DNA of 64,000 nt from positions 248,001 to 312,000 of the forward strand of contig JABSSW010000054.1 in the NCBI GenBank assembly GCA_018902385.1, read 5' to 3'. The DNA comes from Physcia stellaris. Its lineage: Eukaryota > Ascomycota > Lecanoromycetes > Caliciales > Physciaceae. The notes under the pieces were generated by a model. It did no database searches. It was given only the letters and a program-made list of their open reading frames with translations, and was not told the origin of the DNA. Shown here in pieces: positions 29,115 to 64,000 of this stretch; position 1 is the stretch's first letter, and each line of letters begins with the position of its first letter. The position numbers and the translations under genes are program-made.

Positions 29115-30949
29115 TTATGCGGTATCTCTTCCCAATCCCTCTTTGTAACGCTGTAACGCTCGGTCTCGACTCTCCTTGTGCACTACCATTGGCTTAGGGT
29201 AGCCTCCCTTCACTTTGCGCCCTTCCCCCCGATTGAAAGGATCGTGAATACCCTTCCCCTTCACGTCTTTCAGCTCTGGAACCCACTTTCTGATGTACTC
29301 GCCATCGGGATCAAAGCGTTCACTTTGTAATGTCGGATTGAAGATACGGAAGTATGGCTGCGGATCCACACCACTGCTGGCGCTGAATCCCCAGCCTCCG
29401 TTGTTGGAGGCAAAGTCGCCGTCAATAAGATGCTCCATGAAATACCTTTCGCCCATACGCCAATCAATCAATAGGTCTTTGGCGAGAAAAGAGGCCACAG
29501 CCATACGCGCTCGATTATGCATATAACCCATATGGTTGAGTTGGCGCATTGCGGCGTCGATGAAGGGGAATCCTGTGCGCCCCTGGCACCAGGCTTCGAA
29601 GCGCTCGGTGTCGTATTCCCATTTGATGTTGGTATATTCGGGTTTGTATGACTTGTTCATACTGGAAATGCAAGAAAACATTAGCATTTGCTTCCAGCTT
29701 CGGGCAAGAAGAGTTACCATATAAAAGGCCAGTGAGCGAGGACGTGCTTGTAGAAATCGCGCCAAGCAACCTCAGCTATCCAGCCATGAATACCTGTATC
29801 TCCACCATCAAGCTTGTCTGTGCTGTTGTAACTTCTCGCAGTTGCAATGGCTGTCCTCGCACTGAGTGTCCCTGCGGCAAGATGCACGCTCACAACCGCT
29901 GTTGCATTTGCTGCTGGGAAATTTCTCTTGTCTTTATATGCTTTTACTCTTTCCTTCAAAAATTTTGCTAGACGCTCATTGGCTTCTTCCTCGCCTGGCG
30001 GCCACATGCTCCGGAACCTTTTCCTCTCTTCGTCGCTCAAGCTTTTGTTCGCTGGTGCTTCCGGTATGGGCACACTAAACAGATTTTTATGGTCTTCACG
30101 TGTGCTGGGGGGGTTGGATGCTGGTGGTGGATATAAACTAAGATGATGAGGATGGGTATGTAGGTAGGACATCCACGCTCGACACCAGGGACTATAGACC
30201 GCGTACTGCCCACCAGATCCACTGCTCAGTTCACCTGGGGCTACCACGCAAGTATCTGGCTCAACGAAGAAAGCGATACCTTTCTGCAATCCTTCCCTTA
30301 CCATTCGTGCCTCTCGTCGCAGCTCATCGACCTCATATTCCTTATTCGCAAATAAATGACTGGCTCCCCACTTTTCGCACAGCTCAAATATCCTTGCTGG
30401 AATATTCTTCCGCTTCTCCACGGTCTCGACGTATAGTGGTATATCCAAACTTGCGAGAGTTTCCTTCAAAACCTCCAACGTTCTCAGGATGAAGTCGACT
30501 CGCACGGCGCTTGTGACGTGAGCTTGGAAGTCCTGAGGCGAGACGATGTAGATGCAGATCAAAGGCACACCGTTCGCCTTCGCTTTCTCCGAAGCAAGAT
30601 GCAGAGCTTTATTGTCCTTTGTCCGCAAGTCGCACTTGAACCAATGCACCACCGCATTATGAACTTCGGTATGCTCACGCTCGCTTGCCGTCTCCTTCAG
30701 AGCCTTGTCCAAAAGTTCTATCGGTCGAGGGATCTCGTTGTTGTTGTATTGGGCACATCTGGCATTGGTCATCTCTGGAGGGTAGAATTCGCGGTCGACA
30801 ATGCCATAGCGCTCTTCGTCCCTAGAGTCTTTGAAAGCTGGAAAGTCGCCTTTTGGTTTTTTGACGGGCTTATCTGCTGCTTCAGCAGCTTTTCGCTTCG
30901 TCCCAAATACAGCGGTAGGCTTGTCCTCCTTGGGGGCTTTCGACGGCAT
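29115..30949 (-). CDS. phr1: Class I CPD photolyase (cryptochrome/photolyase family)
   Basis: Two exons, 30949-29718 and 29661-29115, with a 56-bp intron, giving 592 residues from the ATG at 30949. The N-terminus is Lys-rich with a bipartite nuclear-signal-like KRKAAEAADKPVKKPK. The antenna-binding photolyase domain begins near residue 104 (VVHWFKCDLRTKDNKAL). The FAD-binding domain includes WIAEVAWRDFYKHV, GRTGFPFIDAAMRQL, MHNRARM and DGDFASNNGGW..GVDPQPYFRIFNP. The enzyme splits UV-made cyclobutane pyrimidine dimers in DNA using blue light. The frame stays open upstream to a second ATG at 31090, which would add 47 mostly basic, acid-poor residues. It is divergent from the beta-mannosidase, sharing about 290-430 bp of promoter, so light-responsive elements could lie there. 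Confidence 0.94.
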
Positions 30950-31381
30950 TGTGCCGAAGGCGATCCTGCAAGTTACTCCCGATTTGCTTGGATTGTAAAG
31001 GCGCAACTGGCTTGATAGGTATGGCAAATTTAATGATGGCAAGGCCAGTCGCCTATCCTTAGCTTTGTATAGGAGACGGCAAAAGGACATCCAATGATCC
31101 AACAAAAGGAAGAGTGCACGAACAAAGAGCTCGTGCCATCCTTCATGATGACGTCGAAGCCTGCCGAGCGTCGATCGATCGGATTAGCGCCAGATCCCAC
31201 CCGTGCCTGCAGCTGAACCCTGCGTTGACAAAGGACGCTCGAAAGCAATCTGGGAAGGATCGCTTTCAACGTCAGGTACTCACTGCAGTCTCTAAGACAT
31301 CTTGATTGACGATATTTGTGAGGTGCAAAGCTTTGCTTTATCCAGACCTAGCTGTTGAACGGTGTCCAGCAAGCACTGATT
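30950..31381. promoter_or_regulatory. Bidirectional promoter, photolyase / beta-mannosidase
   Basis: About 430 bp between the two annotated start codons, or only about 290 bp if the photolyase starts at 31090. Both promoters must fit here. A GATCGATCGGAT-type stretch at about 31170-31185 is notable because fungal light-response factors bind GATC/GATA-like sites. The functional link is inference. Confidence 0.45.
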
Positions 31382-46548: not shown

Positions 46549-47443
46549 TGAGAATACGAAAACAAGTCTATTAATAATATAGCCGTACAGCAATTATAAT
46601 AATCTGCCACATAGCGATGATAACAACGAATCTCCTTTATGTCAAAAACGGCGGACAGCGAAGGATGCGGCAGTGACTGGCCAAAGGGGTGCAGTGTAGA
46701 GGCATCGGTAGGAAGCATAGGAGGCGTTGGAGCGTGAGATGGGACTAAATTCTGGGAGCATAGCGTGCGGCTTGCAACGGTCAGATTCTTGTTCGATGTA
46801 ACATACTGCGAGAGAAGCATGCTGGGCTGAGTGGCTTCATGATCTCAGGATGTAGCAGGAATATTCTATCTGTAAATACACTTCAACAAAGATTAGTAAT
46901 GGGTGCTCCTAGAGCTTTGGCCGAATATCGTTCACTAGCGTGAAGACAGCGTCGCGTGACTTAGGAAACCGAAAGATACATGTACCTTAGATTTAGCATG
47001 ACCTTCACCATGTCAAAACAACGACCGGTCGGCTTGGGCCTTGAATGGTAGGTAGCAGCACTGTCCACTCTCGTTTTGCGTTTGCCTTTCGAAGACGATA
47101 CCCGGCGAGCCGTCACGCACTTCGAAAATCGCCACGGTAGTGACAGCGCTATCCGAGAGTCGGCACGCTCTACACGCCCGATACGCATCCGTAGCCCCGA
47201 GCCTTGAATACTCAATGACCCCCGTCCGGATACTGCAATCTCCACCCTAGCTTCTGAAAGCGAACATAAATCTCGGTAAGAGGAGCCTCCAAGCAATCTC
47301 GGCTGCTTGTGGTCTTGCCATTGTGTTGTCAGGTCGCTAAGGACAATCTGGACCAACGACGGCAAGGCGTGTCGCCTGCAAGCCGTAATTCAACTCTGAG
47401 CGGCCGGCCTCACAAAAGATCCAGACTGACTTATAGTCTGGCG
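46549..47443. other. Intergenic, promoter of the FYVE-RING gene
   Basis: About 900 bp. The frame of the FYVE-RING protein is open from about 47309, so a longer N-terminus with an upstream exon is possible. No separate gene is supported. The first 100 bp after 46548 are A/T-rich with AATAATATAG, a plausible 3' processing region. Confidence 0.45.
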
Positions 47444-49457
47444 ATGGACTCACATGCAGGTGGCTCGACATCAGCAAATACAGAGCATCTTCACGTCGGG
47501 CGGCGTAGTCAATCAAATACTACCAGTATTGCGAATGAGGTTGATAGCACAGCAAGAGCTCGGGATTCACTCAGGAGAGGCAACAGTGATGGAGGTGTGT
47601 TGGCTCGTGGTGTTAACAGGCCAGGCGAGCAGCTGCCTGGGAATGGCGAAACTTGGATCGACTTCCTCAGATATTCAGGTGCTCAAGGAGACCATCAAGA
47701 GCAGGCACAGTCCGCGGTCAGACGAGCCGCAATGATGGCTGCAGATAGGCACCGGAGACTATCTGCTTACATACCAGATAGCGCTCGACGAAGGTCTTCC
47801 AGTCATTTACCCTCTTCTCATGGAATAACAAGACCTGGCATTACACCTCCAAATTTCCACCCGATACACTCAAGTCAAGGCGATGGGAGCAATCAAATTA
47901 GGGAGAGAATCCTCAACCGGCCGTTACCTCGTCGACCTAGCGCAAGTCCTCAATATAACCGTCGAGGTCAAGAGATCGTTCTCCCCAAGTGGCAACCCGA
48001 TAACGAGGTGACAAAATGCCCCATATGCAACACTTCTTTCAGTTTTTGGTACCGAAAGCATCACTGCAGGAAGTGTGGCAGGGTTGTTTGCGCGAATTGC
48101 TCGCCTCATCGAATTACAATACCCCGGCAGTTCATTGTGCATCCACCTGAAGACCGTCCTTCCAATCCACAGCCTAGGATGGACGGCATTGAAGTTGTGG
48201 ACTTGACAGGCGATGATGAAAATAACCCATCTCTATCAAGTCCAAGTACAGAGAACGTGCGCGACGGAGGGATTGACCCTGCACTAGGTGGAGGTCAAGA
48301 AGTCAGACTTTGCAATCCATGCGTGCCCGATCCCAATCCCCTTCCTCATCTGAACCATGCACCTCCGAGATACACCCTAGATTCGTTCCCAAGACCCGAC
48401 TCTATTCCTCAATTGCCAACTGGCTCTGTGGTGCCCCAGCGAAACAGTTCGCTTCAGCGTCCAGTTCCTCCTCCATTAGGAAGGGATTCTTCAAGTAGTC
48501 GAACTCGCGACAATGGATCTATCGTTAGCTTTGAATCAAATGATGGGCGCCTGGTTCATGGCCCTGATGATATTCCTGCTGTCACCTCAGATCGTCATCG
48601 AAGGCGCGGCTCCCGTTCCTCAACTACATCAGCCCATCTACCGAATCATCTAGGTATACCTAGCTCTGGGCCTGATTCATCTTTACATAATGTGGGTACA
48701 AGTATAACGTATCGCTCACTACTCGGAGGAGCTAAAACTGTGACAGCGCAATCTTGCCGCCTTGCTCAACGAGCAAAGATCATCGCTTTCCCGTCACCGG
48801 CAACATGCCTCAACGGGCCACATTCCCGAACATGTGCGTCCGTACTTTCCCTTGGATGAAGTTACCAGTCCATTAGTACGCCGAAGGCCTCAGCCCGAGC
48901 TACGTGAGGAAGATGAATGCCCTATATGCCATGCCGCGCTTCCACCGAAGGACCCGAATGGTTCGGAGACTGCGCGGGAACAGCATGTGACGGACTGCAT
49001 TGAATCTCATTTTTCGAGCTCTGGGCCACGGGCAACCGTTCCACATCCATCGACGGCCACTGCAGCCGCCGTCGCAGCCAATGCTGCAACACCCGCACGA
49101 GCAGGGACAAGTGCGGGCTCTGCTGTAAGCGCTGACAATCCTTCTTCGGAAGGTTTGCCATCACCAACCTTTATGGCCCGTCGGCGGACGACAGGAATGG
49201 TAATTTACCACGCCAGTGAGAAAGACTGTGTGGGCGAAGATGGTTCAGAGGGTCAGGAGTGCGTGATATGTTTCGAAGAATTCGCAGTTGGCGATGAGAT
49301 GGGAAGATTAGAATGCTTGTGCAAATTCCACCGAGTAAGTCGGGGCAATGAACGAGGAGTGGATGACGCTGACGAGTGTGTTGGACAGATGTGTATACGT
49401 CAGTGGTGGGATACCAAAGGTCCTGGATCCTGTCCAGTGCACCAAGGAGGTATATGA
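47444..49457 (+). CDS. FYVE and RING zinc-finger protein (Pib1-like E3 ubiquitin ligase candidate)
   Basis: Three exons: 47444-48691, 48747-49334 and 49389-49457, with introns of 55 and 54 bp, about 634 residues. A FYVE finger starts at Cys192 (CPICNTSFSFWYRKHHCRKCG, with the RKHHCRKCG lipid-binding core, and a distant RLCNPC pair). A second Cys/His cluster starts near residue 474 (CPICHAAL ... HVTDCIESH), a possible ubiquitin-binding-type finger. A C-terminal RING starts at Cys588 (CVICFEEF ... CKFHRMCIRQWW ... CPVH). FYVE binds PI3P on endosomes and RING recruits an E2, so this should be an endosomal or vacuolar ubiquitin ligase like yeast Pib1, though much longer. The middle is disordered. 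The last intron is in frame (54 nt), so its retention would not stop translation but would split the RING. Confidence 0.9.
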
Positions 49458-49880
49458 TATTGGGATGGAAGAGCGATTTGGATAGGAGAGTGGTTCGTTT
49501 AGGAAAGTAAGCGACGCTGTATATCTCCTTGTCATACTAAGTATGTTTTGCATGCCTTCATGTTCGCTTTTTCGTCGGTGACGCAGCCCACTCCTTTAAA
49601 GATTGCCAACATGCCTACATAGACGCAGGGCCTGCCTCGCGAATGCCCAATTAGATCATGTGCAATGAGGATATTGATGCACGTGAGCTCTTGGCGAAGA
49701 TTAAGCTCTCCGCCCCCTCACTAGCACTGTCGGGTTCCAGCTCAACCACCCTACGAAATATCTCGGCCACCCTACAAACTCCCGGCTTGGCATATGTTCA
49801 ACCACTCTACAAGTTTTTCGACCCGAGTCTTTGCTCAGCTATTGCGCATATGCTTAATTTAGTGATTATTTTACGTCACG
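49458..49880. other. Boundary zone between genic and AT-rich DNA
   Basis: About 420 bp after the FYVE-RING stop. The phrase CAACCACCCTAC or a near form recurs near 49742, 49772 and 49800. By about 49860-49900 the base composition shifts abruptly to A/T and the CpT/CpC-poor signature begins. No gene is supported. Confidence 0.5.
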
Positions 49881-52800
49881 CTTAATTAATACGCGATTTT
49901 TTCACAAATTTAATTTATGTTGCATGTGTTTACAATTTTGATTCAATTGCAACATTGATCAATATTGCATTTTCATCGTTGTATTGTTTAAAATTTCTCA
50001 TATTGTATTGATAAATATGACAGATGAAAATATCATTTATACAATACAAAACAAAATTGAAACTTGATTGCATGATATTCTCGTGAATGATAATAATAAA
50101 ATAATTTATATTTAACATATGTTTAACATTTAAAGTTGAAATCATTTCAACAAAATTTTTACAACGATTTGAATGATGACAATGATCATAATATTGAAAA
50201 TAACGATTTCGAAAATGACGAAAAAATCGTCGCATTTGATATTTTGTTGCGCATGAAAATGAATGAAATAATATTGCAAAATTTGAACATGTGTTCAACA
50301 TATGTTAATTATATTCAAAAAAAAATTTTTACATATGAAATGTTTGTTATTTTCAACGATGTCAAAAAAATCACAACATTTAAAACAATAAATCACATTG
50401 ATATGTTTTCGTATTTCGAAATTCAAAACATTGACGTATTATATTTCATTTACAATTCAACATCGTTAACAAATTTGAACGATAACGCAATTCGAAAAAT
50501 GATTGCACAACAAATGTCAAAAATATGTTTAATTTATGTTGAACATATACAGTAATAATAAAAAATTATCAAATACAATTCAATTGTGAAATCACACATT
50601 CGAAATTTCGACATTGTAATTTCAAATTATTGAATATGCAAAAAAAAAATTCCGAAACATTTACGTATCGTTATACGTACAAATGTTTCGAAATCAAACA
50701 TTGTCAATATGTTCACAAAAATATTTTGCGCACATATTCAACATATAACAAAATTAAATTTAAAAATTTCAATAATTTTCAAAAAAAAATCAATCGTGTA
50801 TGATGTGTTTTTCGAACAAAACGTGACGAATTGAAAAAATAAACAAAAAAATACAATATATATTTCATTTATGTTAAACACAAATTTAATTTCATAATCA
50901 TTACAATGCGTTTTGACAATTTTGAAATATTCATTCAAATCGATGTGTTCATTTTCGATTTAAAAAAAACATATGTCAAAATCGACGATCGAAAAAATGA
51001 ATTCGCAATAAAATGAATTATCGAACAAAATTTAAACTTAACATATATTGAAAATATACAAATTATTTTTATAAATTGTTCACGATCGAACGATGCAAAA
51101 TTTTGACATACAATTAAACATTTATTTATTCAAACGATTCGAATTGATGTCAAATATTTTGAATTTTTATTGAAACATGATAATAATGATATAAAATCGA
51201 ATTGCATTTTTGTTGATCATGCGAATTTCAACAAAAAATATTGTGATAAACATAAATCGAACATATGTTGCACATAAATTAAATTTGAAAAAATTCGATT
51301 ATTCATGAGAATTCGACGTAATGAAACATCATAATAAATGCAATGTGCGATTTGATTTTTTTTTATTCAAAAATCAAACGCGATTTTCATTTTATATGTT
51401 TTGTATGCGCGAAACATATAATTATTATTTATCGTATTCGATCAAATTATCAACAAAAATCGCGAAAAAAATGATTTCAATAATCAAAAAACATGATTTA
51501 TTGATTTTGACAACACGTAAATTGAACATATGCTTGATTTGATTATATTTTGATTTAATTATTTTTCAAAACGATTTATTATTTCATTTCAATTCGCGAA
51601 CTTGAATCGAACATATGATGAACATATTTTACGAATTTTACATATCAATTTGAACAACGAAAATCGAATCAATGTTTTGATTCGAAAACAACGATTATTC
51701 GAATATTCAAAAAAAATTCATTTGATCGATAAATAATATATTATATATATGCATTGTACATGTTAAACATATGTTTTACAAAAATTATACGTGAATACAA
51801 TTTCGACAAATTACGATTCAAATATGATCAATGAATTCGAAACATTCATTTTTTCGATGAACAACATTATTTCATTATATGTTGTATTTATGTTCAAGTC
51901 AAGATTTTTGTTCATGTCAAAACAATGCAAATGAATTTATTTTTCAAAATGATTGAAAATAAAAATAATTTGTTTTTTTTTGATAAAATGAAACGCAAAT
52001 TTCAAACGTAAATTTAACATTTGTTTCGCATATGTCGAAATTGATATTTACATATTCATACAAATATCAATGTATATTGTTATGCAACAATAAATACAAA
52101 TATTCGTCATATTTATAAACATTTTTTTCAAAAAATGTTCAAAATATTCGAAAATGTGTCGAAAATTTTTATATATTTCGCGCATATAATCGAACACGAA
52201 TTCGATTTACGTTTAATATCATTTGATATGTGCAAAAAACAAAATTCAAATAAAATATAAATATAACATAAATCGAACACATGTTGAATGTTTTCAAATT
52301 TTGAAAACTTTTTTCATGAAATAAATTCATTTCGAACATGAAATGAACATTTGCAACATATGCTCGTTTTTTGCAAAATACATGTTTAACGTAATTTTGT
52401 AAAAAAATGATTTTATCATTCGATCAAACATTTGATCGAACAAATTTGAAAAAAAAAAATCATTCAAAAAATTATTGAACATATGAAACTTGTAAATCAA
52501 TTATATGTTGAATTTAAATTCTGAATGAACAATAAACGAAAAAATTGAATTTTGATCGAATTAATCAAAAAACGATCGAAAATGTTTTTCAATGATTGAT
52601 TACTTGTCAAAAAAAACATTGATTTAAGCGAAAATAATCATTTTCAAAACAACAATTTCATCGAGCGAAATTTGTTTTTGTTGATTGCAATTTTAAAATC
52701 AATATATTTTCAAAATATGTTCAACATATGCTCATATTGATTAAATTGAAATTGCATTTCATGAAAATGTATCAACAAAAATTTTTTCGAAAATCAAAAC

Positions 52801-53572
52801 ATTGATATTATTTGACGAAATAATAATGATATTCGACGATTATTGAAACAATTTCGAAAAAAAAATATTATGAAATTCAATTTAAATTTTGCATATATTG
52901 AATGTTTCAAATCAACGTCATCAAAAATCGATTGTTCGACGAACGCATCACACGAAAATGTCGTACAATTCACAAAATTCGTATGATGCATTTACGAAAC
53001 GAAAACATATGTTTGACACAATACGCAACATAAATTCAATTTCGAATAAATTTATTATCATACAAAATTTCAACGATATCATTTCACAATTCGAAACGAA
53101 AAATGTGATATCAAATCAATCATCAACAAAAATTCATTTTTCAAATTTGAACATAAACGAAACACAAATTCAATTTATGTCATTATCGAATTTTTCGTCA
53201 TCGAATCGTCGTCGACATCGTTTTTAAATTTTTGAAAATATATCAAAACAACAAACACATGATGAACGTTTACAACGTTTACGTACAAAAATGATTCGTT
53301 TTTAACATCAAAAAAAAAAATGTTGAATGAAATAAAACGTTTCAAAACATAACACGTCGAACACTAATCATAAATTCGACATATGTTGAATTTTGTAATT
53401 GCATGTTGACAATAATTTTGATATATATTGAATGTTGCAAATATTAAATTATTTGTTGTTTTTAAAACGATTCATCAATCGAATTTTGATAAAAAAAATT
53501 CGTGTAATTAATAATTGTCAATCGACATATGCACAACATATGTTTTATTTACATTTGACATGATTTTTTCGA

Positions 53573-53660
53573 TCTTTTCGATTTCGTTTTCGATTTCGAT
53601 TTTTTTTTTCTCGATTTTCTTTTTTTCGATTTCGATTTCGTTCTCGTTTTCGTTTTCGCG
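53573..53660. repeat. Simple repeat, TTTCGA-type
   Basis: The + strand is a run of TTTTCGATTTCG-like words interrupted only by T runs, i.e. low-complexity microsatellite-like DNA. Three CpT steps remain here, so it is slightly less cleared of CpT than its surroundings. Confidence 0.8.
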
Positions 53661-53926
53661 TTACAAATGATTCAGTCGTCACAAATAATTCAACAACAAA
53701 CGTTGATGAACGCGAAACAATTAAAATTTGTTAATTTAATATAAGTTGAACATAAATTAAGTTTCACATATCGATAAATAACGACGATAACGAAAATACG
53801 AAAAATACTCGTTTTTTGAATTTTTGAAACGAATAAAATTGTTCGTTTCAATTCAATGATGCATTCATTGCATCGATATCGCGATTTAAATCAAACATAA
53901 TTTGAACATTAATATTATTCGACATA

Positions 53927-54665
53927 TGTTGAACATTTTTTTCGTCGTCAACATCAAAAACAAAAAAAGCAACGACGAAAAAATTCGATTTTTCGTCGAC
54001 ATTAAACATATGCTGAACATCAATTTCGACATTCGCAAAAAAAAAAACGACAAAAAAATCAAATTCGAAAAATTTCGATTTTTCGTCGATAACAAACATA
54101 TGCTGAACATTAATTTCAACAATTGCAAAAAAAAAACGACAAAAAAATCAAATTCGAAAAAATTCGATTTTTCGTCAAAAACAAACATATGTTGAACATT
54201 CGTTTCAACATTCGCAACAAAAATAAAAAATTCAAACACAAAAAAATTCGATTCATCGATGATTGCGAACATATGTTGAACATCGTTTTCAACATCAACA
54301 ACAAAAATAAAAAAATCAAACGCAAAAAAATTAAATTTATTGTTGATTGCGAACATATGTTAAACATCGTTTTCAATATCAACAACAAAAATGAAAAAAT
54401 CAAACGCAAAAAAATTAAATTCATTGTTGTTTTCGAACATATGTTGAATATCATTTTCAACATCGACATCGAAAATAAAAAAATCAAACGCGAAAAAATT
54501 AAATTCATTGTTGATTGCGAACATATGTTGAACATCGATTTTAACGATCACGAAATCGAATACGAAAAATTTCGATTCGATAATGAAAAACATATGTTGA
54601 ATATCGACAATGATATCAATGTCAAATTCAAAAATTGATTTTTCGATGAAAACGTGCATATGTTG
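53927..54665. repeat. Tandem array, period 84 bp (minisatellite-like)
   Basis: CATATG recurs at 54007, 54097, 54186, 54270, 54354, 54438, 54522, 54591 and 54657. The spacing is 90, 89, 84, 84, 84, 84, 69 and 66. The central units are exactly 84 bp apart and are nearly identical in layout: a CATATG start, an A-rich middle with AATAAAAAAATCAAACGC, and an ATTGCGAA end. The flanking units vary in length. Because 84 is a multiple of three, both strands carry long open frames here with a 28-residue repeat. I read these as by-products, not genes. About 9-10 units are present. Confidence 0.85.
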
Positions 54666-55744
54666 AACATTTGTTTTTTTGTCAACAAAAAAAACATCAA
54701 AAACAAAAACGCGAAATTTTGATTCGCGACGAACGATAAATTTATGTTGAACATCAACATGTTCAACGTTATCGAATTTTTGTTTGTTATGAATTTTTTC
54801 ATATATGTTTGTCATATGTCGATTTTTGATAATAATCGTTGTTTCGTCATCGAAATCGACAATCATTTTTTCGTTTAAATTGAACTTATGTTCGACAATT
54901 TTTGATTTTTTGACTTTTTTGAATTTTTTTGATACGAAACGATGAAAATGCAAATTTCAAATATCGACGAAATCAAAATCGATAAAATTGAAAAAACAAT
55001 TAACATATGTCAAACATATGTGAAAAAAAATTTACGCGAACTTTTCAAGATTCGTGACAATTTTGTTGATGTATTTATTGACGAATTCGAAACTAATCAT
55101 ATGTTTAATTTATGTTGAAAAAATGATCGATATGATATATTTAAATTCAAACAAATAACGAGCTTTGCGTCATTTTCTCGAAAAAACGTATTTTTTTAAT
55201 TCACTTTGAATATTAATTTAACATATGTACAACATAAATACGATTTACTTTTCGTCAATCACGATTTCGTTTGAATCAATATTCGCACGATTGTTATTAA
55301 CAAATGCGTTTGAATGAACATTGCGAATATGTTTTCGCAATTAATAATCGTTCGTAAAAAAAAACATATGTTTGAAATATGCATCATATACATTGAATTG
55401 ATCAACGCAAATTTTTTCACACATTTGATCGTCGTTGATATCGATATCACAATTGTTTTTTATCAATGTCGTAATAACAAAATACATTAATGAAAATATT
55501 TACATGTCGATGTTGATTGCGTTTAAAATATGCGAAATTTGAAAAGCGATTAAAAATTCAACATATGCAAAATTTGAATCGAAAATATTGATCAGCGTTC
55601 ATCTTCGCGTTTATAGATGACAAAGTTGTAAATTGTTAAAAAATACAAAATATTATTATTAATATACATACGTTTGATTTTAACAATTTGAACTTGACAT
55701 ATGTTTAACATATTGTCAACATGTGTGATATATTCAAACAAGAC

Positions 55745-55986
55745 TGTTACGAGCATGTCTGACAAATAAATTTGACAAATAGATAGTTGATATGATAAAT
55801 GATTAAACAAATATGTCTGAATCGAATTATGTTTTAATTTTTTAACGAAATTAACGTGATTTGAAATTTGACGTTTGCACATTGTTTACAATTTCATCAT
55901 TTTGTATTTATTTGTTTTTGCAAATTTATTGTTTTCGTCTAATTAATCAATAATACGTTTATTCAAGCACGATTCATGATATTACA
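55745..55986 (+). repeat. Left LTR of the Ty3/gypsy fossil
   Basis: It begins TGTTACGAGC and is clearly related to the right LTR through GATTCATGATA at 55971-55981. A likely CA end follows at 55986. It keeps several CpT and ApG steps, so it is less hypermutated than the interior. Confidence 0.75.
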
Positions 55987-58385
55987 ATAAGTTTTCAATT
56001 TTTATCGCTCGTCGAGATACGCGAACGTTCAAAAATAAAATTTCAAATCGATCAAATTTTTTTGACGAAACAAACGACGAAAAACTTTGTTGATCAAACA
56101 AATGATTTGAAAATTCTTTTGACGAAACAACGACGAAATTTTCGACGATAAAAAACGAAAATTGATTCGATTAACTTTTTTTTTTTTATCATTTTCAATT
56201 TTTCATTTTCAATTATGATTCGAAATTATCACGAAACAATTTTTTTCGAATTTTTTATTTCGATGAAACAACGTTTCAAAACGTTACGCGTCAACGTGAA
56301 TCGTATGTTGCATAAAATTAACGACAATTTTTTTGACGAAAATTTCGTTGATCAATTCAAACGTCGTCGATTTGTATCAACGATCGATTTCATAAAAATG
56401 AAAAATGAAAAAATCATTCATTTTCTGAATATCGTCATTATCGATCAGTTGAAATGATGAATCAATCATAAAATCGTCGATTTTTTAAAAAAATTTGATC
56501 GATTACGCATCGATCGTGACAATTATTTGAACGTTTTGATTCAATATCAGAATTTGTACAATATTGTCAACGTCGATCGTGACGAATTGATCAATACGAA
56601 TATCGAATTAAATAAAATTCGTCGAAAATTGAATATTTTGAAAAGCGAATACGAAAAACAACGTGATTTATTTTTGATCAAACAAAAAAATTACATTTTT
56701 TTGAAAAAAAATCACGACGTTTTGTTGATCAAAATTCGCGATCGTGCACGAAATTCGAACGTCGACGATGAAAAAAACGACGATAAAATCAACGTAATTA
56801 ATTTTTTTCAAAAAAACAAACGACGTTTCAAAACACATTCAAATTTTTTTAAATTCATCGATGAAATAAAATTCATTTAACGTGTTTGAAAAACAAAAAT
56901 ACACGATAAAATGACGATCAACGTTGATCATTACGACACGAACATGATCGCAATCATTATTGTGATTGATTGAATTGAAAATAATGTCGATAATCACATA
57001 CAATCGATTCGTGATATTGATATAAATCATTTCAAAATTTGACATATGATGTTGAAATTTTTGAATATTATTTACGAAAATTTTGATTTCAAACGCAATA
57101 TGCGTAATCAATTTCGAACATTGATCATGAATATTCAAAATTTTCAATTTTTTTATTTCATTTTTTTCGTTTTTTTAGCAATTCAATTGATTATAACGAA
57201 ATCATCAAAATCGAAAAATTGACGTCGCACATTGCTTGCAACAAAACTTTTTCTGAAATTTGTCAATAAAAAAACGATGAATGATATTACAATAATTTTA
57301 TTTTATCGTTCGTCGTGAAATTCGAATCATTTTCAAAAATAAAATTTCAGACCATCGCTTTTTGACGAGACAAACGACGAAAGTTCTGTTGATCAGACAA
57401 TCGATCAAAATTTTCTGACGAAACATTTGACGAAAAAATAACAAGTCGAATTTTCACGCAAACGACGATATTTTCGACGAAAATTGATTCGATTAAACTT
57501 TATCATTTTTCAATTTTTCATTTTTAATTGTTTCGATTCATCACGAAACAATTTTTTCGAATCTTTTATCGTTTGAAACAACGTCTCAGAACGTTCGATG
57601 TGAATCGTATTTACGAAAAAATCATTTCGACAATTTTTCGACGAGAATTTCGTCGAGCAGTTCGTCGTCGATCTGTTTCAACGATCGAGTTCATAAAAAT
57701 GAAAATGACGACGAATTTTGAACATCGTCATCATCGGTTGAATTGATAAATCAATCAGAAAGTCATCGATTTTTTGAAAAAATTTGATCGATTACGCATT
57801 GATCGTGACAACTATTTGAACGTTTTGACTCAATATCAGAATTTGTACAATAAGCGTCGATCGTGACGATAATCAATAAAACGATTCGATGAAATTCGCG
57901 TACATTGAAATTAATTACGAGCAAAATCGACTTCTAGTCAAACAACACGATTACATTTTTTCAAGAAAAATTGACGTTTTGCTAAAAATCGTACACGAGA
58001 TTTTGATGGCGACGATGACGAAGCGACGACGAAATCAGCGTAATTAATTCAATAAAAGCAAACGACGTTCAAAAGTTCATTCAAAAAGTTCATTGAAATT
58101 TATTTGACGTGTCTGAAAGACAAAGATGCATTTGATAAAATGACGATTCGATCATTACGAACGAATTTGAATTGTGATTGACTGAATTGAAAATTGTACG
58201 ATGATTCAATCGATACGTGATATCGACATAATCATTTCAAGAACTGACATATGATTTGTTGAAATTTTGAATTTCATTTTCGAAAATTTTGATTTCAAAC
58301 GCAATATGCGTATTCAATTCGATTCATTGATAAAATATTCGAACTTTCAGTTTTTTATTTCATTTTTTTTCGTCTTAGCAATTCA
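55971..58385 (+). repeat. Tandem internal duplication (two copies, about 1.3 and 1.1 kb)
   Basis: The first copy starts near 55971 and the second near 57277. Both run through the same landmarks: GATATTACAATAA, CGAAAATTGATTCGATTAA, a TCATAAAAATG phrase, GATCGATTACGCAT, and AGCAATTCAAT near the end (57177 and 58381). The second copy is about 10 percent shorter. It also keeps more CpT and ApG steps than the first. This lies in the 5' (gag-side) part of the element. Confidence 0.75.
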
Positions 58386-58797
58386 ATCGACTATAAATCA
58401 TCAAGATCGAGAAATTTTAACAAAATCTTCTGAAATTTGAAAAAAGCGATTTATATTCACGTGAATTCAACGTTCGATGAAATTCGAATCATTTTGCAGC
58501 AAATTTACAATCGGCAATCGAGTTTTCGAAAAGAAAAAATCGCGACAACAACGTTTCTGAATTGTTTCAGTTCATAATCAATTTTTGTCGTTTCGATTCG
58601 ATATTTTTACGAAATTTATTTCGATTTTTTTGTGAAAGTTTGTCGTTCATTTTCATTTCAGCGTTGAAATCAAAATTCGTGATTCGATGACAGACAAATT
58701 GATCGTCACGACAAATGTTTTTAACATGCGATGAAATCGATCACGTATAAAAAAATGTTCGAACGTTCACAAACATCAAAAACGTCATTGACACAAA

Positions 58798-61700
58798 ATG
58801 CAAATGTTTTACATGAACATGATTCGCGAATCGAGCGAATTGATTCGAAAAATTGATAATTCACATCAAAACGCGATTGATGAATGTTTAAGAATTTTGA
58901 TTTATCATGACGAATTGTTTGATTTTTTTGTCAAACGATTTTTAGTCATCAATTGTACGTTGTCATTCAACGATAATAAACATAAATTAGAAGTTTTAAT
59001 AGACATTGATGCAATTGATTATGTTTTCATTGATAGAAAAATTGCGCAATTTGTATGAAAATGAATTTCGTATTTTATTAAAATCGAAATTCATTAAATT
59101 CGACGATCGTCAGATTTTTCAATAATTCATGTCATTTATTTCAAATTGACAATTGATTTGCATTTCGAATTGACAATTTTTTTGTTTATCGATTTGAACA
59201 ATCATTCGATAATTTTAGAAAAATCGTGAATGAACAAACATTGAATATGATTTACGATAAATTGATTTTCAAATCGTTCAAATGTAATCATCATGACAAT
59301 ATATTTATCAAACATGCAAATTCGACGTTTGAAAGTTTCTGATTCAAATCGTCGATGAAACGTATTTAATTGACGTCGCGATGTTTTTTTATCGAAAACA
59401 AATAACGCGAAACATATTGTTACAATAAATTTCGATATACGATTTTATTTCGTTCGCAATTTAATTTTCAACGTTTTATGTACAAAACGAATCAAAATGT
59501 ATTCGATTCAAAATGTTTCGATTGTTTTATTCATTCGAAAATCGATCAAAATGACGAGTCGTTCGTCATCGAATCAAATCATTCAAAAATTGATATCACA
59601 ACGATTACGAAAACGACATTCGTCAAAAAAAAAATTTGAAAAAACAACGCAACAAACGTTGAAAAATCAAAAACAACAATTCGAAATTTTTCATTTTCGA
59701 AATTGAATTCAAACGATTCGATGAATATCGCGATGATTGATGCGATTTTTTTGTTTATTCGTCGATTTCAAAATCGAAAACAAAAAATGCAATGTTTTTT
59801 CATTACGATCAATCAAATCGATTTCGCATTCAAAACATTGCGAACAAATTTTGAATCGTTGAAAATTGTCGTCATGATCAAAAAAATTTTGAAACACGAA
59901 CAAATCAAATCGATTTTTGAACGTATAATGAAAAAAATATCGAAATATTTCAAACATTTGTCAAAAATATTCGATTTTCAAAAAACAATTGAATTGTCGT
60001 CGCATCGAATTTACGATCACAAAATCGAATTTTTAAACGATAACAATACATTGTTTCGAAGTCGAATATATTTTTGTTCGAATTCAAATTTCAAAAATTC
60101 AAAAATATTTGAAAAATAATTTTCAAAAAATTTTATCGTATTCAATCAAACAACATACGTTTCGTTCGTTTTATTTGCAATCAAATCGAATGATCAATTA
60201 CGTTTGTGTGTGAATTATCGACGATTTAATCACATCACGAAACGCAATCGATATTTCATTTTTTTGATCGAAAAAATTTTAATTAAAATGCAAAATTGCA
60301 AATATTTGATCAAATTGAATATTATATCGATTTTCAACAAATTTCGAATGAATGAAAAAAATGAAAAATTTATCACGTTCGTTATTTTCATGAAATCGTA
60401 CAAATATCGAATATTATTTTTCGAATTGATCAACGAATTCGCGAATTGACAACATTACATGAACGATTTGTTGTTCAATTTTTTGAACGATTTTTGTCAA
60501 ATTTATTTAAATGATATTTTCATTTACAACAAATTCAAAAAAAAACACATCGTTCACGTTCGTAAAATGTTGAAAAAATTCAAAAAATCGAATTGCAAAT
60601 GAATATTGAAAAATGCGAATTTTTCAAAAAAAATGACATTTTTGAACGTCATATTATCGATAAATGATTTTCGCATGAATTCGAAAAAAATAAAAATCAT
60701 TGTCAATTGAAAACGTTTTACAAATTTGAAAAAAATGCAAATTTTCGTGAATTTCGTCAATTTTTACAGACGATTCATTCGTGATTTTTCGAAAAAAATT
60801 CGAATTTTCATTCGAATGATCAAAAAATTCGTGAATTTCGAATGAATTGTTGAAATCGAAAAAATTTTCAATTTTTTCAAAAAAACGATGACGAAAATTT
60901 TCATATTACGACATTACGATCGAATCAAACAAATCATTTTGAAAATTGATTTTTTTGATTACGTCAATGCAAAAATATTATTTCAATACGACGACGAAAA
61001 AATGTTGCATTTCGTTGTTTTTTACAATCGCAACATGATTTCAATCGAATGTAATTACGAAATTTATGACAAAAAATTGTTGATCATTATTCGTTGTTTA
61101 AAACATTGACGTTTTGAATTTGAAAATATTGAAAAATCGATCAAAATTTTCATCGATCACAAAAATTTGAAAATTTTCATGACGTCAAAAAATTAATTTT
61201 TCGTCAAATTCGTTGAAGCAGAAATTTTTTCGAAATTCAATATTGTCATTCAGTTTCAATTCGAAATTCAGAACGTTAAAACAAATGTCTTGATTCGTAT
61301 GTTTGATTCACGATTCAAAAACGATATTGACGAACGACATCAATATCGAAAACAAATATTGTTTATTTCAAAACGATTCGAAATTCACGCGATAAAATTG
61401 ACGAATTTATTTACGAACGAATTTTGATTGTCAACAAAATTGACGATGATTGCACGATTTATCGTGAAATCATCGAACAAAATTTCATTTCAATGAATGA
61501 AATTGATTTACGAAATTGCATTGAAAAAAACGACGTTTTGTATCGAAAAAAAAATCGATTTTGAATGTTCGTCGATGTTTTTTTATTCGTTGATTTTTTC
61601 AAAAAAATTCATGAATTTTTGTTTCGAAACATTCAAATTTTAATCGCATGAAAAATTTTATACGTCGCGATTATTATTGATTCAACATGCGCAAATTCGA

Positions 61701-62410
61701 TTCGTCGATACGTACGTAATTGTTATGAATGTCAACGCACGAAAATTTTCAAAAATCGCAAAAACGATTTATTTATATTTTTGATTATATTTTTGCAACG
61801 TTGAATCGACATATCAATGAATTTCATCATCGAATTGTTCGACGTTCACGATCATAATGTCATATGCACGATAATGACAAATTTAACAAAAAACGTCATT
61901 ACGTGTTTTGTATCGTCGACGACGAAAATATCAAATATTGAAAATCACGATCAAAATATTTATCAATTACGTATTTCGTACACATGAATTATTTTTTCGA
62001 TAACGTTTGATCGAGATTTCAATTCATATCGTTCGTTTGACAAACATTTTGTCGAATTCTCGACATCAAATGTAAATTTTTCATCGTTTTTCATTCAGAA
62101 ATCGATGAACAAATCGAAAAAATCAATCAAAATATCGAAAAACAATTGCGACAATATTGCAATTACATGCAAAACGATTGAAACGTTTGATTGTTCATGA
62201 TCGAATTTGCAAACAACAACGCAATATTTGCAACAACAAAATTATTTTCATTTTTCATCAATAAAAGTTTTCATTTTCGTATGAATTTTTCATCAAATTT
62301 TATTTCGTATGTTACAACGAAAAAGCGATTTTTGATTGTCAAAACAAAAAATATTATCGACATTATGCAAAATATTCTCAATTACGTACGAAATCATGCA
62401 AAATGATTCA
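58798..62410 (+). mobile_element. Pol-region remnants of the Ty3/gypsy fossil
   Basis: Domain echoes are seen in order. A retropepsin-like stretch lies near 58.95-59.05 kb (LEVLIDIDAIDYVFID). A reverse transcriptase stretch lies near 60.0-60.5 kb (HRIYDHKIEF, LCVNYRRFNHIT, NRYFIF). An RNase H stretch lies near 60.9-61.1 kb (ILRHYDRIKQIILKID, ECNYEIYDKKLLIIIR). An integrase zinc-finger-like stretch lies near 61.7 kb (RNCYECQRTK). The order protease-RT-RNase H-integrase defines Ty3/gypsy, not Ty1/copia. The region is broken and no domain is complete. Confidence 0.85.
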
Positions 62411-63333
62411 AAAACGTATAACAATTCAAATCAACAAACATCGAAAAATCGTAAAATACGTCGAAAAAATTTCGTTTTTTCGATCGACGAAACATCAAAA
62501 CGATCAAATCGTTTGACAAATTCGATGACAAAAAATTAAATTTTTACAAAATATTACAACGTAAAACAATTTTTATCGATTCGAATTGTTTGAAATCATA
62601 CATATTTACGATGTGTTTCATTGTTGATTTTTGCGCAAAATTTTCGTGATTCATTCGAAAATCAAATCAATGAATTTTTGATTTTGTCATAGTCAACGAA
62701 AATTTCGAATGAGAAATGAACGATATTTTGAAATTTCGATATCATTACAATCGTTTTCAGTATCGTGTTAATTGATCGAATTGATTTCATGATCGAACAT
62801 GATATTATGTCGACAACGAAAAATTTGATAATGTTCGCGACGTGATGAACGATTTTCATCGCATTCATTTCACGATTGCAAATTCAAAATCGTTCAAAAC
62901 GTTGATTTCAATATTTCAAAACGTCGTCGACGAATCAGATTTTTCAACGAATCGTCGTCGTTTTCGAAAAAAATCGTCATGTTGACATTAATCGAAATTA
63001 CATTCGATTAAAATTTGAAAACTCGAATTCAATACATTCATTTCGATTTCATTTTCGCAACGTTTTCACAGTTTTTAATTTTCGTTATCGTTTCGATGTT
63101 ATTTACAATCAAAATTTACGTCGCATAAAAGAATTGAATCGTGTCAAAAACATTTTCAGAAATTGTTGTCAAATTTTATCGAATTTTTTTGAAACAATAA
63201 CGAAACATTTTTGAAGATGAAAAATGATGATCGTGAAATTTTTGAATTTTGCAAGGCATTCAAATCAGTCAGCAAGATTCTCAACAAGATTTTTCAATTT
63301 CGAAATAACAACGAATCGTCGAAACGACGCTCG

Positions 63334-63349
63334 CGAAAAGAAAAAATAG
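63334..63349 (+). other. Polypurine tract before the right LTR
   Basis: A purine-rich run (GCGAAAAGAAAAAATAG) ends one base before TGTTACGA of the right LTR. This is where the plus-strand primer of an LTR element is expected, and it supports the LTR boundary and the + orientation. Confidence 0.7.
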
Positions 63350-63577
63350 TGTTACGAACATGCCTGACAGGTAAATTTGACAAATAAATAGTTGATATGA
63401 TATGTGATCGGGCAACGAATTATGTTTTAATTTACGTTGAGATTAACGTGATTTGAAATTTGACGTCGCACACATTTTTGTTTGCAATTTCAACATTTTG
63501 TACTTACTTGTTTCTGCAGACTTATTGTCTTCGTTTAGCTAGTCAATAATACGTCTATCCAAGCACGATTCATGATA
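63350..63577 (+). repeat. Right LTR of the Ty3/gypsy fossil
   Basis: It begins TGTTACGAAC and shares with the left LTR the words GACAAATAAATAG, GTTGATATGAT, AATTATGTTTTAATTT, ATTAACGTGATTTG and CAAGCACGATTCATGATA. Of all parts of the AT-rich block it keeps the most CpT, CpC, ApG and GpG, so it is the least mutated. Confidence 0.8.
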
Positions 63578-64000
63578 GTTTTAGCAATTCAATTGATTAT
63601 AATGAAATCATCAAAATCGAAAAGTTGATTAACAAAATTTTCTAAAATTTGAAAAAAACGATGAAATAAAATGTATATTTTTAAAATTTATCACGTTCGA
63701 TGAGATTCGAATCATTTTGTAACAAATATACAATCGACAATCGAATTTTTAAAAAAAAAAAATCGCGACACGTCAACAACGTTTTGAATTGTTTCAATTC
63801 AAATCAATTTTTGTCGTTTCGATTTCGATTTTTTTACGAAATCTGTCATTTCGATTTTTTTCGTGAAATTCATAATTCATTTACATTTCAACGTTGAAAT
63901 CAAAATTCGCATTCGATTCGATCGACAAATTAATCGTCACGAACAAATTTTTTCACATGCGACGAATTGAATCACGTTTGAAAAAATGTTCGAACGATTA
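63578..64000 (+). mobile_element. Start of a second copy of the element interior, cut by the window edge
   Basis: Directly after the right LTR the sequence matches 58377-58775 of the element interior (AGCAATTCAATTGATTATAATG, GATTCGAATCATTTTG, AATCGCGACA, CGTTGAAATCAAAATTCG, AAAAAATGTTCGAACG) in the same order. The gag-side duplication is absent between LTR and match. This suggests a neighbouring element that shares the LTR, or a rearranged nested copy. It continues past the window. Confidence 0.75.

Follow-up and report, generated by a model that had tools for sequence, protein, structure and literature searches.

Loss of cytosines before pyrimidines, with CpA and CpG spared or nearly so, in a retrotransposon-bearing block of the Physcia stellaris genome

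The window analysed here is a 64,000-nt stretch of the genome of the ascomycete Physcia stellaris (Lecanoromycetes, Physciaceae; assembly GCA_018902385.1, contig JABSSW010000054.1, positions 248,001 to 312,000). Its last 14,120 bp (positions 49881-64000 of the window), which contain the remnant of a Ty3/gypsy retrotransposon, have lost nearly all cytosines that precede a pyrimidine on either strand, whereas cytosines followed by a purine are present at or near the density of the neighbouring DNA. In what follows this region, which extends past the end of the window, is called the block, and positions 1-49880, at the same locus, serve as its control; Y denotes C or T and R denotes A or G as the 3' base, and CpY+RpG counts the affected step on both strands. 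The depletion of CpY is real, clean and unusual, and we hold the pattern with high confidence. Its likely explanation, in our view, is that the block is repeat DNA nearly saturated by a repeat-directed C:G-to-T:A mutator that resembles repeat-induced point mutation (RIP) but reads a 3' pyrimidine.

The GC content is 0.261 in the block and 0.505 in the control. Only 4 CC, 7 GG, 81 CT and 114 AG steps are found in the block, as opposed to 1022 CA, 815 TG and 822 CG; relative to expectation from base composition, this corresponds to ratios of 0.02, 0.03, 0.12 and 0.17 for the four depleted steps, 1.37 for CA and 3.42 for CG, while all 16 steps of the control lie between 0.73 and 1.13. Over both strands, (CpT+CpC)/(CpA+CpG) falls from 0.988 in the control to 0.059 in the block. 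Density ratios of block to control, with 95% ranges bootstrapped over 500-bp windows (28 in the block, 99 in the control), are 0.006 (0.002-0.012) for CpC+GpG, 0.108 (0.071-0.145) for CpT+ApG, 0.926 (0.89-0.966) for CpA+TpG and 1.016 (0.903-1.129) for CpG. With CpG still at control density, long-term deamination of CpG does not seem to have affected this DNA. The longest run free of CpY and RpG reaches 782 bp in the block, compared with 33 bp in the control. The first-pass annotation had described CpA and CpG as abundant and CpT/ApG and CpC/GpG as missing on the strength of two hand counts, both of which prove exact: the 15 cytosines of 54301-54420 comprise 11 CA and 4 CG, the 16 of 60001-60120 comprise 8 CA and 8 CG, and neither interval holds a CT or CC (the second contains one AG and no GG from the other strand). 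The full count of 16 steps makes the case more strongly than it was originally put, and the start assigned to the block, 49881, is likewise correct, the density of CpY+RpG falling at 49862-49881.

The composition of the block is closely approximated by a simple saturation model, in which every CpY and RpG of positions 1-49880 was converted in silico (C to T, G to A). The model predicts a GC content of 0.254 (observed, 0.261) and, per kb, 189 AA (186 observed), 137 AT (141), 14.6 GC (14.4), 56.9 CG (58.2), 71.9 CA (72.4) and 66.9 TC (69.6). Simulated conversion of CpA, by comparison, predicts 185 TA and no CA per kb, where 58 and 72 are observed; the fit was likewise very poor when the simulation converted only CpT, only CpC, CpH or every C. 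Trinucleotides locate the altered base within former CC steps: CCA and CCG nearly vanish, while TCA and TCG rise to 68.7 and 66.5 per kb from 37.1 and 34.0 in the control, roughly a doubling. It was therefore the first C that changed, which implies that the mutator reads the base 3' of its target; no strong effect of the 5' base is evident from the trinucleotide counts. The C-to-T and G-to-A pattern is present on both strands, the target is C before a pyrimidine, and there is little or no action on CpA and CpG.

The two kinds of target were not consumed equally. Survival relative to the control is 0.8% for CCR (7 sites), 10.6% for CpT (195 sites), 93% for CpA and 102% for CpG. Two islands are less converted: 57171-58700 retains 4 CCR (4.1%) and 63 CpT (31.7%), and 63201-63700 retains 2 CCR (6.3%), 4 CCY (13.8%) and 29 CpT (44.7%). 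First-order rates, taken as minus log survival of CCR and of CpT, place CpC 2.2 times ahead of CpT over the block, and 2.8 and 3.4 times ahead in the two islands, where counts are small. The order of targets is accordingly CpC > CpT >> CpA, CpG. Together these islands of incomplete conversion, which lie in LTR-like (long terminal repeat-like) or duplicated DNA, hold 10 of the 11 CC and GG steps left in the block, and they should be useful for measuring relative rates. Between them, in 58701-63200, the surviving sites are biased by strand (5 CT and 28 AG; binomial p 7e-5 at equal odds, 0.004 at 40:60); conversion may have gone further on one strand here, and ancestral composition could contribute.

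Repeated sequences within the block allow the direction and context of change to be examined between copies. Three pairs, all on the forward strand, were aligned: a tandem duplication with a heavily converted first copy (55952-57220) and a less converted second copy that keeps many CpT (57257-58416); LTR-like segment a (55736-55981, heavily converted, and 63341-63577); and LTR-like segment b (58372-58765 and 63578-63996). The second copies of a and b adjoin (63341-63996) and are partly converted at 63.2-63.7 kb. In the left LTR-like copy (55736-58765) about 2.4 kb are present that the right copy lacks, among them the 1.2-1.3 kb tandem duplication. Strict columns, meaning those free of gaps in which the two copies share the 3' base and no more than one further difference lies close by, were counted per available site. 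In these columns C and T differ at 49 of 55 CpT and 3 of 3 CpC sites, as compared with 16 of 134 CpA and 12 of 134 CpG sites, that is, 52 of 58 CpY versus 28 of 268 CpR (Fisher p 7.6e-33). Four other filters, looser or tighter, gave 74/82 versus 49/361, 67/74 versus 37/312, 64/71 versus 32/302 and 36/41 versus 14/138, with 88-91% of CpY and 10-14% of CpR differing throughout. Transitions number 83 and transversions 32 in the strict columns of the three pairs (47/21, 17/3 and 19/8), and the predominance of C:G-to-T:A transitions over other changes is also supported by the saturation model. Where a CpT differs within the tandem pair, the less converted copy is the one that carries the C in 23 of 25 cases, while CpR differences split about evenly between the copies (4 and 7 for CpA, 4 and 6 for CpG). 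The C is carried by the second copy of segment a in 10 of 13 cases and by the first copy of segment b in 10 of 11.

A third line of evidence comes from the retrotransposon remnant, which is read on the forward strand and consists of a reverse transcriptase (RT) portion at 60120-60842, broken by in-frame TGA codons, and an RNase H portion of the same element at 60846-61106. The piece at 60120-60446 matches the RT of Ty3 (PDB 4ol8) with an E value of 1.2e-6 and Pfam RVT_1 with only 0.074; the piece at 60450-60599 matches RVT_1 with 0.00054, too weakly to pass the curated cut-off; and the piece at 60846-61106 exceeds the curated cut-offs of both RT_RNaseH_2 (E 2.6e-14) and RT_RNaseH (E 2.5e-7). 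Aligned with Ty3 over 103 residues, the RT remnant shows 75 mismatches, 22 of which fit CpY conversion (shuffle mean 11.6; a fraction of 0.0005 of shuffles reached 22), 4 fit CpR conversion (mean 5.6) and 2 fit the opposite transitions (mean 4.7). None of the 11 proline and 5 glycine residues of the Ty3 stretch reads as proline or glycine in the remnant. Between 60120 and 61109 all five stops in the RT/RNase H frame are TGA, including those at 60447, 60600, 60708 and 60843, as expected if tryptophan codons (TGG) had become TGA. A six-frame translation of the whole block yields only 11 P, 11 G and 3 W (0.4, 0.4 and 0.1 per 1000), compared with 60.6, 60.6 and 19.0 per 1000 in the control.

C-to-T (G-to-A) hypermutation in a 3' pyrimidine context, the central proposal of the first-pass annotation, thus holds in the window by the saturation simulation, the comparison of copies and the comparison of Ty3 codons. 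The aligned copies had been set as a check that could have overturned it, and their C-to-T differences fall mainly at CpY, not at CpA. The same annotation had expected standard RIP indices to misread such DNA, and this is what happens. With thresholds of 0.89 for TpA/ApT and 1.03 for (CpA+TpG)/(ApC+GpT), as quoted in PMC10998396 (this and the other published sources are cited from the portions available to us), the block scores 0.41 and 1.44 overall. Its one-kb windows range from 0.32 to 0.57 and from 1.14 to 1.97, with a composite index of -0.75 to -1.51, and RIP is called in none of the 14. An index suited to the pattern, (CpY+RpG)/(TpY+RpA), takes values of 0.004-0.085 in the one-kb windows of the block and 0.945 over the control.

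The transition from normal to hypermutated DNA is abrupt. CpY+RpG density is 234-254 per kb across 48500-49861 and still 254 per kb in 49601-49861, then 14 per kb in 49862-50000; the last such site on the normal side is at 49861, and the next ones are at 49881 and 49997. This edge (49862-49881), the one in view, is thus about 20 bp wide, and density stays normal up to 49861, so that conversion has not visibly spread into the flank. A change so confined and so nearly saturating points to a directed process rather than to a general mutagen. The 49.9 kb of neighbouring DNA are normal. Repeated or transposon-derived sequence in the block, in this one window, comprises the gypsy remnant, the tandem duplication, a minisatellite and the LTR-like pairs. 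In positions 1-49880, a search after in-silico conversion for unmutated parents of the block gave matches no better than those of a block-shuffled control.

By the explanation we prefer, the fungus would pair repeated DNA and act on it in a homology-directed manner during the sexual cycle; an enzyme of the C5-methyltransferase type would modify C in CpC and CpT, and deamination would yield T over many sexual cycles. The enzyme is probably a methyltransferase of the RID or DIM-2 type with altered specificity, a view that we hold with moderate confidence: a RID/Masc1 homologue with changed reading of the 3' base would be our first choice, and a DIM-2-type enzyme, considered because DIM-2 is reported to prefer CpT, the second. 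Such a CpY rule would remove nearly every proline (CCN), glycine (GGN) and tryptophan (TGG) codon, and the stops it creates should be TGA, made from TGG, as TAA and TAG cannot arise under it from the glutamine codons CAA and CAG.

Several points weigh against this explanation. The evidence comes from one locus in one window, and both the model and the survival figures put host DNA in the place of the transposon's own ancestral composition. The model misfits at some steps: observed and predicted densities per kb are 166 and 193 for TpT, 57.8 and 44.7 for TpA, 57.7 and 68.4 for TpG, and 37.9 and 43.4 for GpT. Part of this would be explained if about 7% of CpA/TpG had been lost or if the ancestral composition had been different. 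The RT/RNase H frame also has TAA codons, just outside the stretch with the five TGA stops, at 60117 and 61194. Before filtering, C/T differences in the tandem pair are spread over CG (46), CA (38), CT (42) and CC (1), and the 28 CpR sites among 268 still differ in strict columns. The tandem pair is old and gappy, with transversions making up 94 of its 221 differences; unfiltered differences number 15 CT, 5 CC, 6 CG and 2 CA in segment a, and 14 CT, 13 CA, 9 CG and 1 CC in segment b. As the copies carry many transversions, the CpR differences are probably explained by ordinary divergence, with weak CpR mutation a possibility. Finally, repetition of the block elsewhere in the genome is presumed, and the segment 49881-55735 may be something other than a transposon.

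The explanations closest to the preferred one differ in the enzyme. A distinct repeat-targeted deaminase or modifying enzyme, rather than a retuned RID or DIM-2, might read the 3' pyrimidine or attack G after a purine, working on CpC ahead of CpT and essentially not on CpA or CpG; we consider this a possible but clearly less probable alternative, and if it is true, repeat-directed mutation could be reached by a second route, chemical or evolutionary, which existing indices score as no RIP. Somewhat more doubtful still is a DNA cytosine deaminase, AID/APOBEC-like or other, with a 3'-pyrimidine preference in place of a methyltransferase. C-to-T change on both strands, a one-base 3' context and the lack of a strong 5' effect would all suit it, and the sequence cannot separate deamination from methylation followed by deamination. 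In editing of the APOBEC3G type, however, the altered base of CC is the second C, and AID is guided by the sequence 5' of its target, whereas here it is the first C that was altered; editing of retrotransposon cDNA would leave a bias towards one strand, whereas the losses here affect both. An APOBEC-type 5' context is rejected, and so is ultraviolet damage, which acts in dipyrimidine context and would also affect TpC; TpC stands at control density (69.6 versus 70.6 per kb). Deamination of CpG, as in basidiomycetes, is rejected by the CpG ratio of 1.016 (0.903-1.129), and a bisulfite artefact by the presence of both C-to-T and G-to-A on one strand next to normal DNA.

Other rivals dispense with a repeat-directed cytosine mutator that reads a 3' pyrimidine. 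A guanine-directed lesion would strike G after a purine, and the damaged or modified base would then be read as A; SN1 alkylation (SBS11) is an example. Such alkylation prefers GpG to ApG and spares YpG, and GpG likewise leads ApG here with YpG spared. We know of no enzyme that would bring a lesion of this kind to repeats. Chemical damage would not saturate one block with a 20-bp edge while leaving 49.9 kb normal, and we judge this explanation very unlikely, even though the temozolomide spectrum, C>T at CpC and CpT (PMC12556801), is a striking parallel. Classic RIP, led by CpA with CpT second, and with a CpY appearance owed to the ancestral sequence, has in its favour that CpT-to-TpT change is known alongside CpA in Botrytis, Sclerotinia, Magnaporthe, Anisogramma and the Tad1 element of Neurospora crassa. 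It is refuted for this block, and we give it almost no credence: the CpA+TpG ratio is 0.926, TpA/ApT is 0.41, simulated CpA conversion calls for 185 TA per kb where 58 are seen, and CpC, the step least used in N. crassa and Trichoderma reesei, is here the most depleted. Just as hard to sustain is the idea that the block is not fungal repeat DNA at all, but an AT-rich organelle, another organism or a genome reading TGA as tryptophan, joined by misassembly. The abrupt change of composition and the five TGA stops in the frame 60120-61109 would fit. A CpG observed/expected ratio of 3.42 with CC and GG near zero, however, is unlike any AT-rich genome known to us, and CpG and CpA densities match those of the neighbouring DNA. 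A recoded genome is rejected by the loss of the Ty3 proline and glycine positions: with 0 of 16 kept, the remnant is broken and not merely recoded.

The left 5.9 kb of the block, 49881-55735, are converted as heavily as the rest and have CATATG in excess, occurring 34 times in 49881-55800 where 2.4 are expected in Markov-generated sequence. The motif often stands within AACATATGTTGAACAT-like words, with irregular spacing outside an 84/89-bp minisatellite array (53917-54569, forward strand; 53.9-54.6 kb), and it is also found in the normal flank at 49791 and 49847. To judge from sequence, the segment looks like an old, diverged array whose core, built of CpA/TpG only, outlasted the mutator. Pfam searches with two of its pieces (50127-50552 and 52886-53224) gave no match. 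Among 10 pieces of the block searched against Pfam, only the RNase H piece passed the cut-off, and 4 further pieces gave a single RVT_1 match below it; two of these four, at 61652-61984, where an integrase was expected by eye, had no Pfam match, and Rfam returned nothing at gathering thresholds. Pattern scans for relatives of the RNase H piece produced 106 matches in genome contigs and 14 in viral contigs, none of them confirmed, and a PDB search with this piece gave a chance-level match only (E 0.11).

The control (1-49880) is gene-rich and unmutated, with matches to GH31, multicopper oxidase, DUF7492, photolyase, mannosidase-type GH2, TRP, FYVE, OTCase, acyl-CoA dehydrogenase and others. The DNA photolyase gene is split over two open reading frame (ORF) pieces on the reverse strand (29115-31183). 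A FYVE-domain ORF (47270-48859, forward strand) is the last with a Pfam match before the edge of the block; the next ORF, 48744-49457, has none. Short intron-like patterns number 27 in a count made without a control. Together with the gene content (DUF7492, TRP, multicopper oxidase, FYVE and others) they fit a filamentous ascomycete, and the first-pass annotation's placement in Pezizomycotina is plausible on the genes present. Within the window, no DNA methyltransferase or deaminase domain was found in the 26 of 29 control ORFs (200 aa or longer) that were scanned, nor in 14 pieces of the block.

A CpY mutator that spares CpA and CpG breaks the usual rule of repeat mutation in fungi, and the pattern suggests that the 3'-base reading of a RIP enzyme can switch completely, providing a natural counterpart against which the residues behind this reading could be identified. 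Genes, too, are damaged differently under the changed rule: hardly any proline, glycine or tryptophan codon is left, and the stops that arise should be TGA. A survey that relies on TpA/ApT and CpA indices would pass over such DNA as free of RIP, and tools that reconstruct ancestral sequence on the assumption of CpA would err on it.

We found no report of CpC-led hypermutation sparing CpA in the available portions of the literature searched; an earlier description is possible in the 2011 survey by Clutterbuck, reportedly the main comparative survey of RIP contexts. The block shares with the RID-dependent RIP of N. crassa the C:G-to-T:A change on both strands, transposon remnants as substrate and the occurrence of AT-rich blocks among normal genes. 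It differs in the lead of CpC over CpT, in the near or complete sparing of CpA and CpG and in a low rather than high TpA/ApT; nor are TAA or TAG from glutamine codons expected. CpA, the preferred target in Neurospora, is not preferred here (CpA+TpG ratio 0.926; 16 of 134 CpA as against 49 of 55 CpT sites differing between copies), and high TpA/ApT combined with low (CpA+TpG)/(ApC+GpT) is seen in none of the 14 windows. The order in N. crassa is CpA > CpT > CpG > CpC, and CpC also comes last in T. reesei (PMC5496416); here it has shifted from last to first. DIM-2 likewise prefers a 3' T, but methylates all CpN (review PMC13297926), whereas in the block CpA and CpG are spared and CpC leads. Basidiomycota, too, show C-to-T hypermutation with a preferred 3' base, but their target is CpG, as in the TpCpG of Microbotryum and in Rhizoctonia AG8 (PMC4352252 among the sources), which is untouched here; and SBS11, with the same C>T at CpC and CpT, reflects untargeted damage in tumours rather than change within one block (PMC12556801).

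Forms of RIP directed at CpT come closest. In Botrytis cinerea, Sclerotinia sclerotiorum and Magnaporthe oryzae CpT is attacked together with CpA (PMC4352252), the same holds for Anisogramma anomala (PMC10998396), and in Monilinia CpC-to-TpT double mutations accompany classic CpA changes (PMC8959702). CpT-to-TpT is a main change in most of these fungi, yet it occurs with CpA, and none is described, in the portions available, as sparing CpA. Five Copia and Gypsy families of Colletotrichum truncatum are CpT-biased, with TpA/ApT of 1.61-1.67 and (CpA+TpG)/(ApC+GpT) of 0.08-0.12 (PMC6180176), values which imply that CpA is apparently gone there as well; the block stands at 0.41 and 1.44. CpT overshadows CpA in alignments of N. 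crassa Tad1 (PMC2621366) and is called dominant in RIP-capable controls in PMC7882544, while a 2025 screen of 1,239 genomes describes a CpA preference shared by RIP-like defences (PMC12543289); the available text of PMC5602860, PMC11412873 and PMC7296669 contains nothing on context. Where CpT-type RIP acts on CpT with CpA as a joint or secondary target, the block shows CpT affected, CpA hardly or not at all and CpC most strongly. CpT signatures are thus already known, but with or beside a loss of CpA; the form found in P. stellaris, led by CpC and sparing CpA, is a pattern in which we have high confidence and which, judged against the available portions of these sources, appears to be new.

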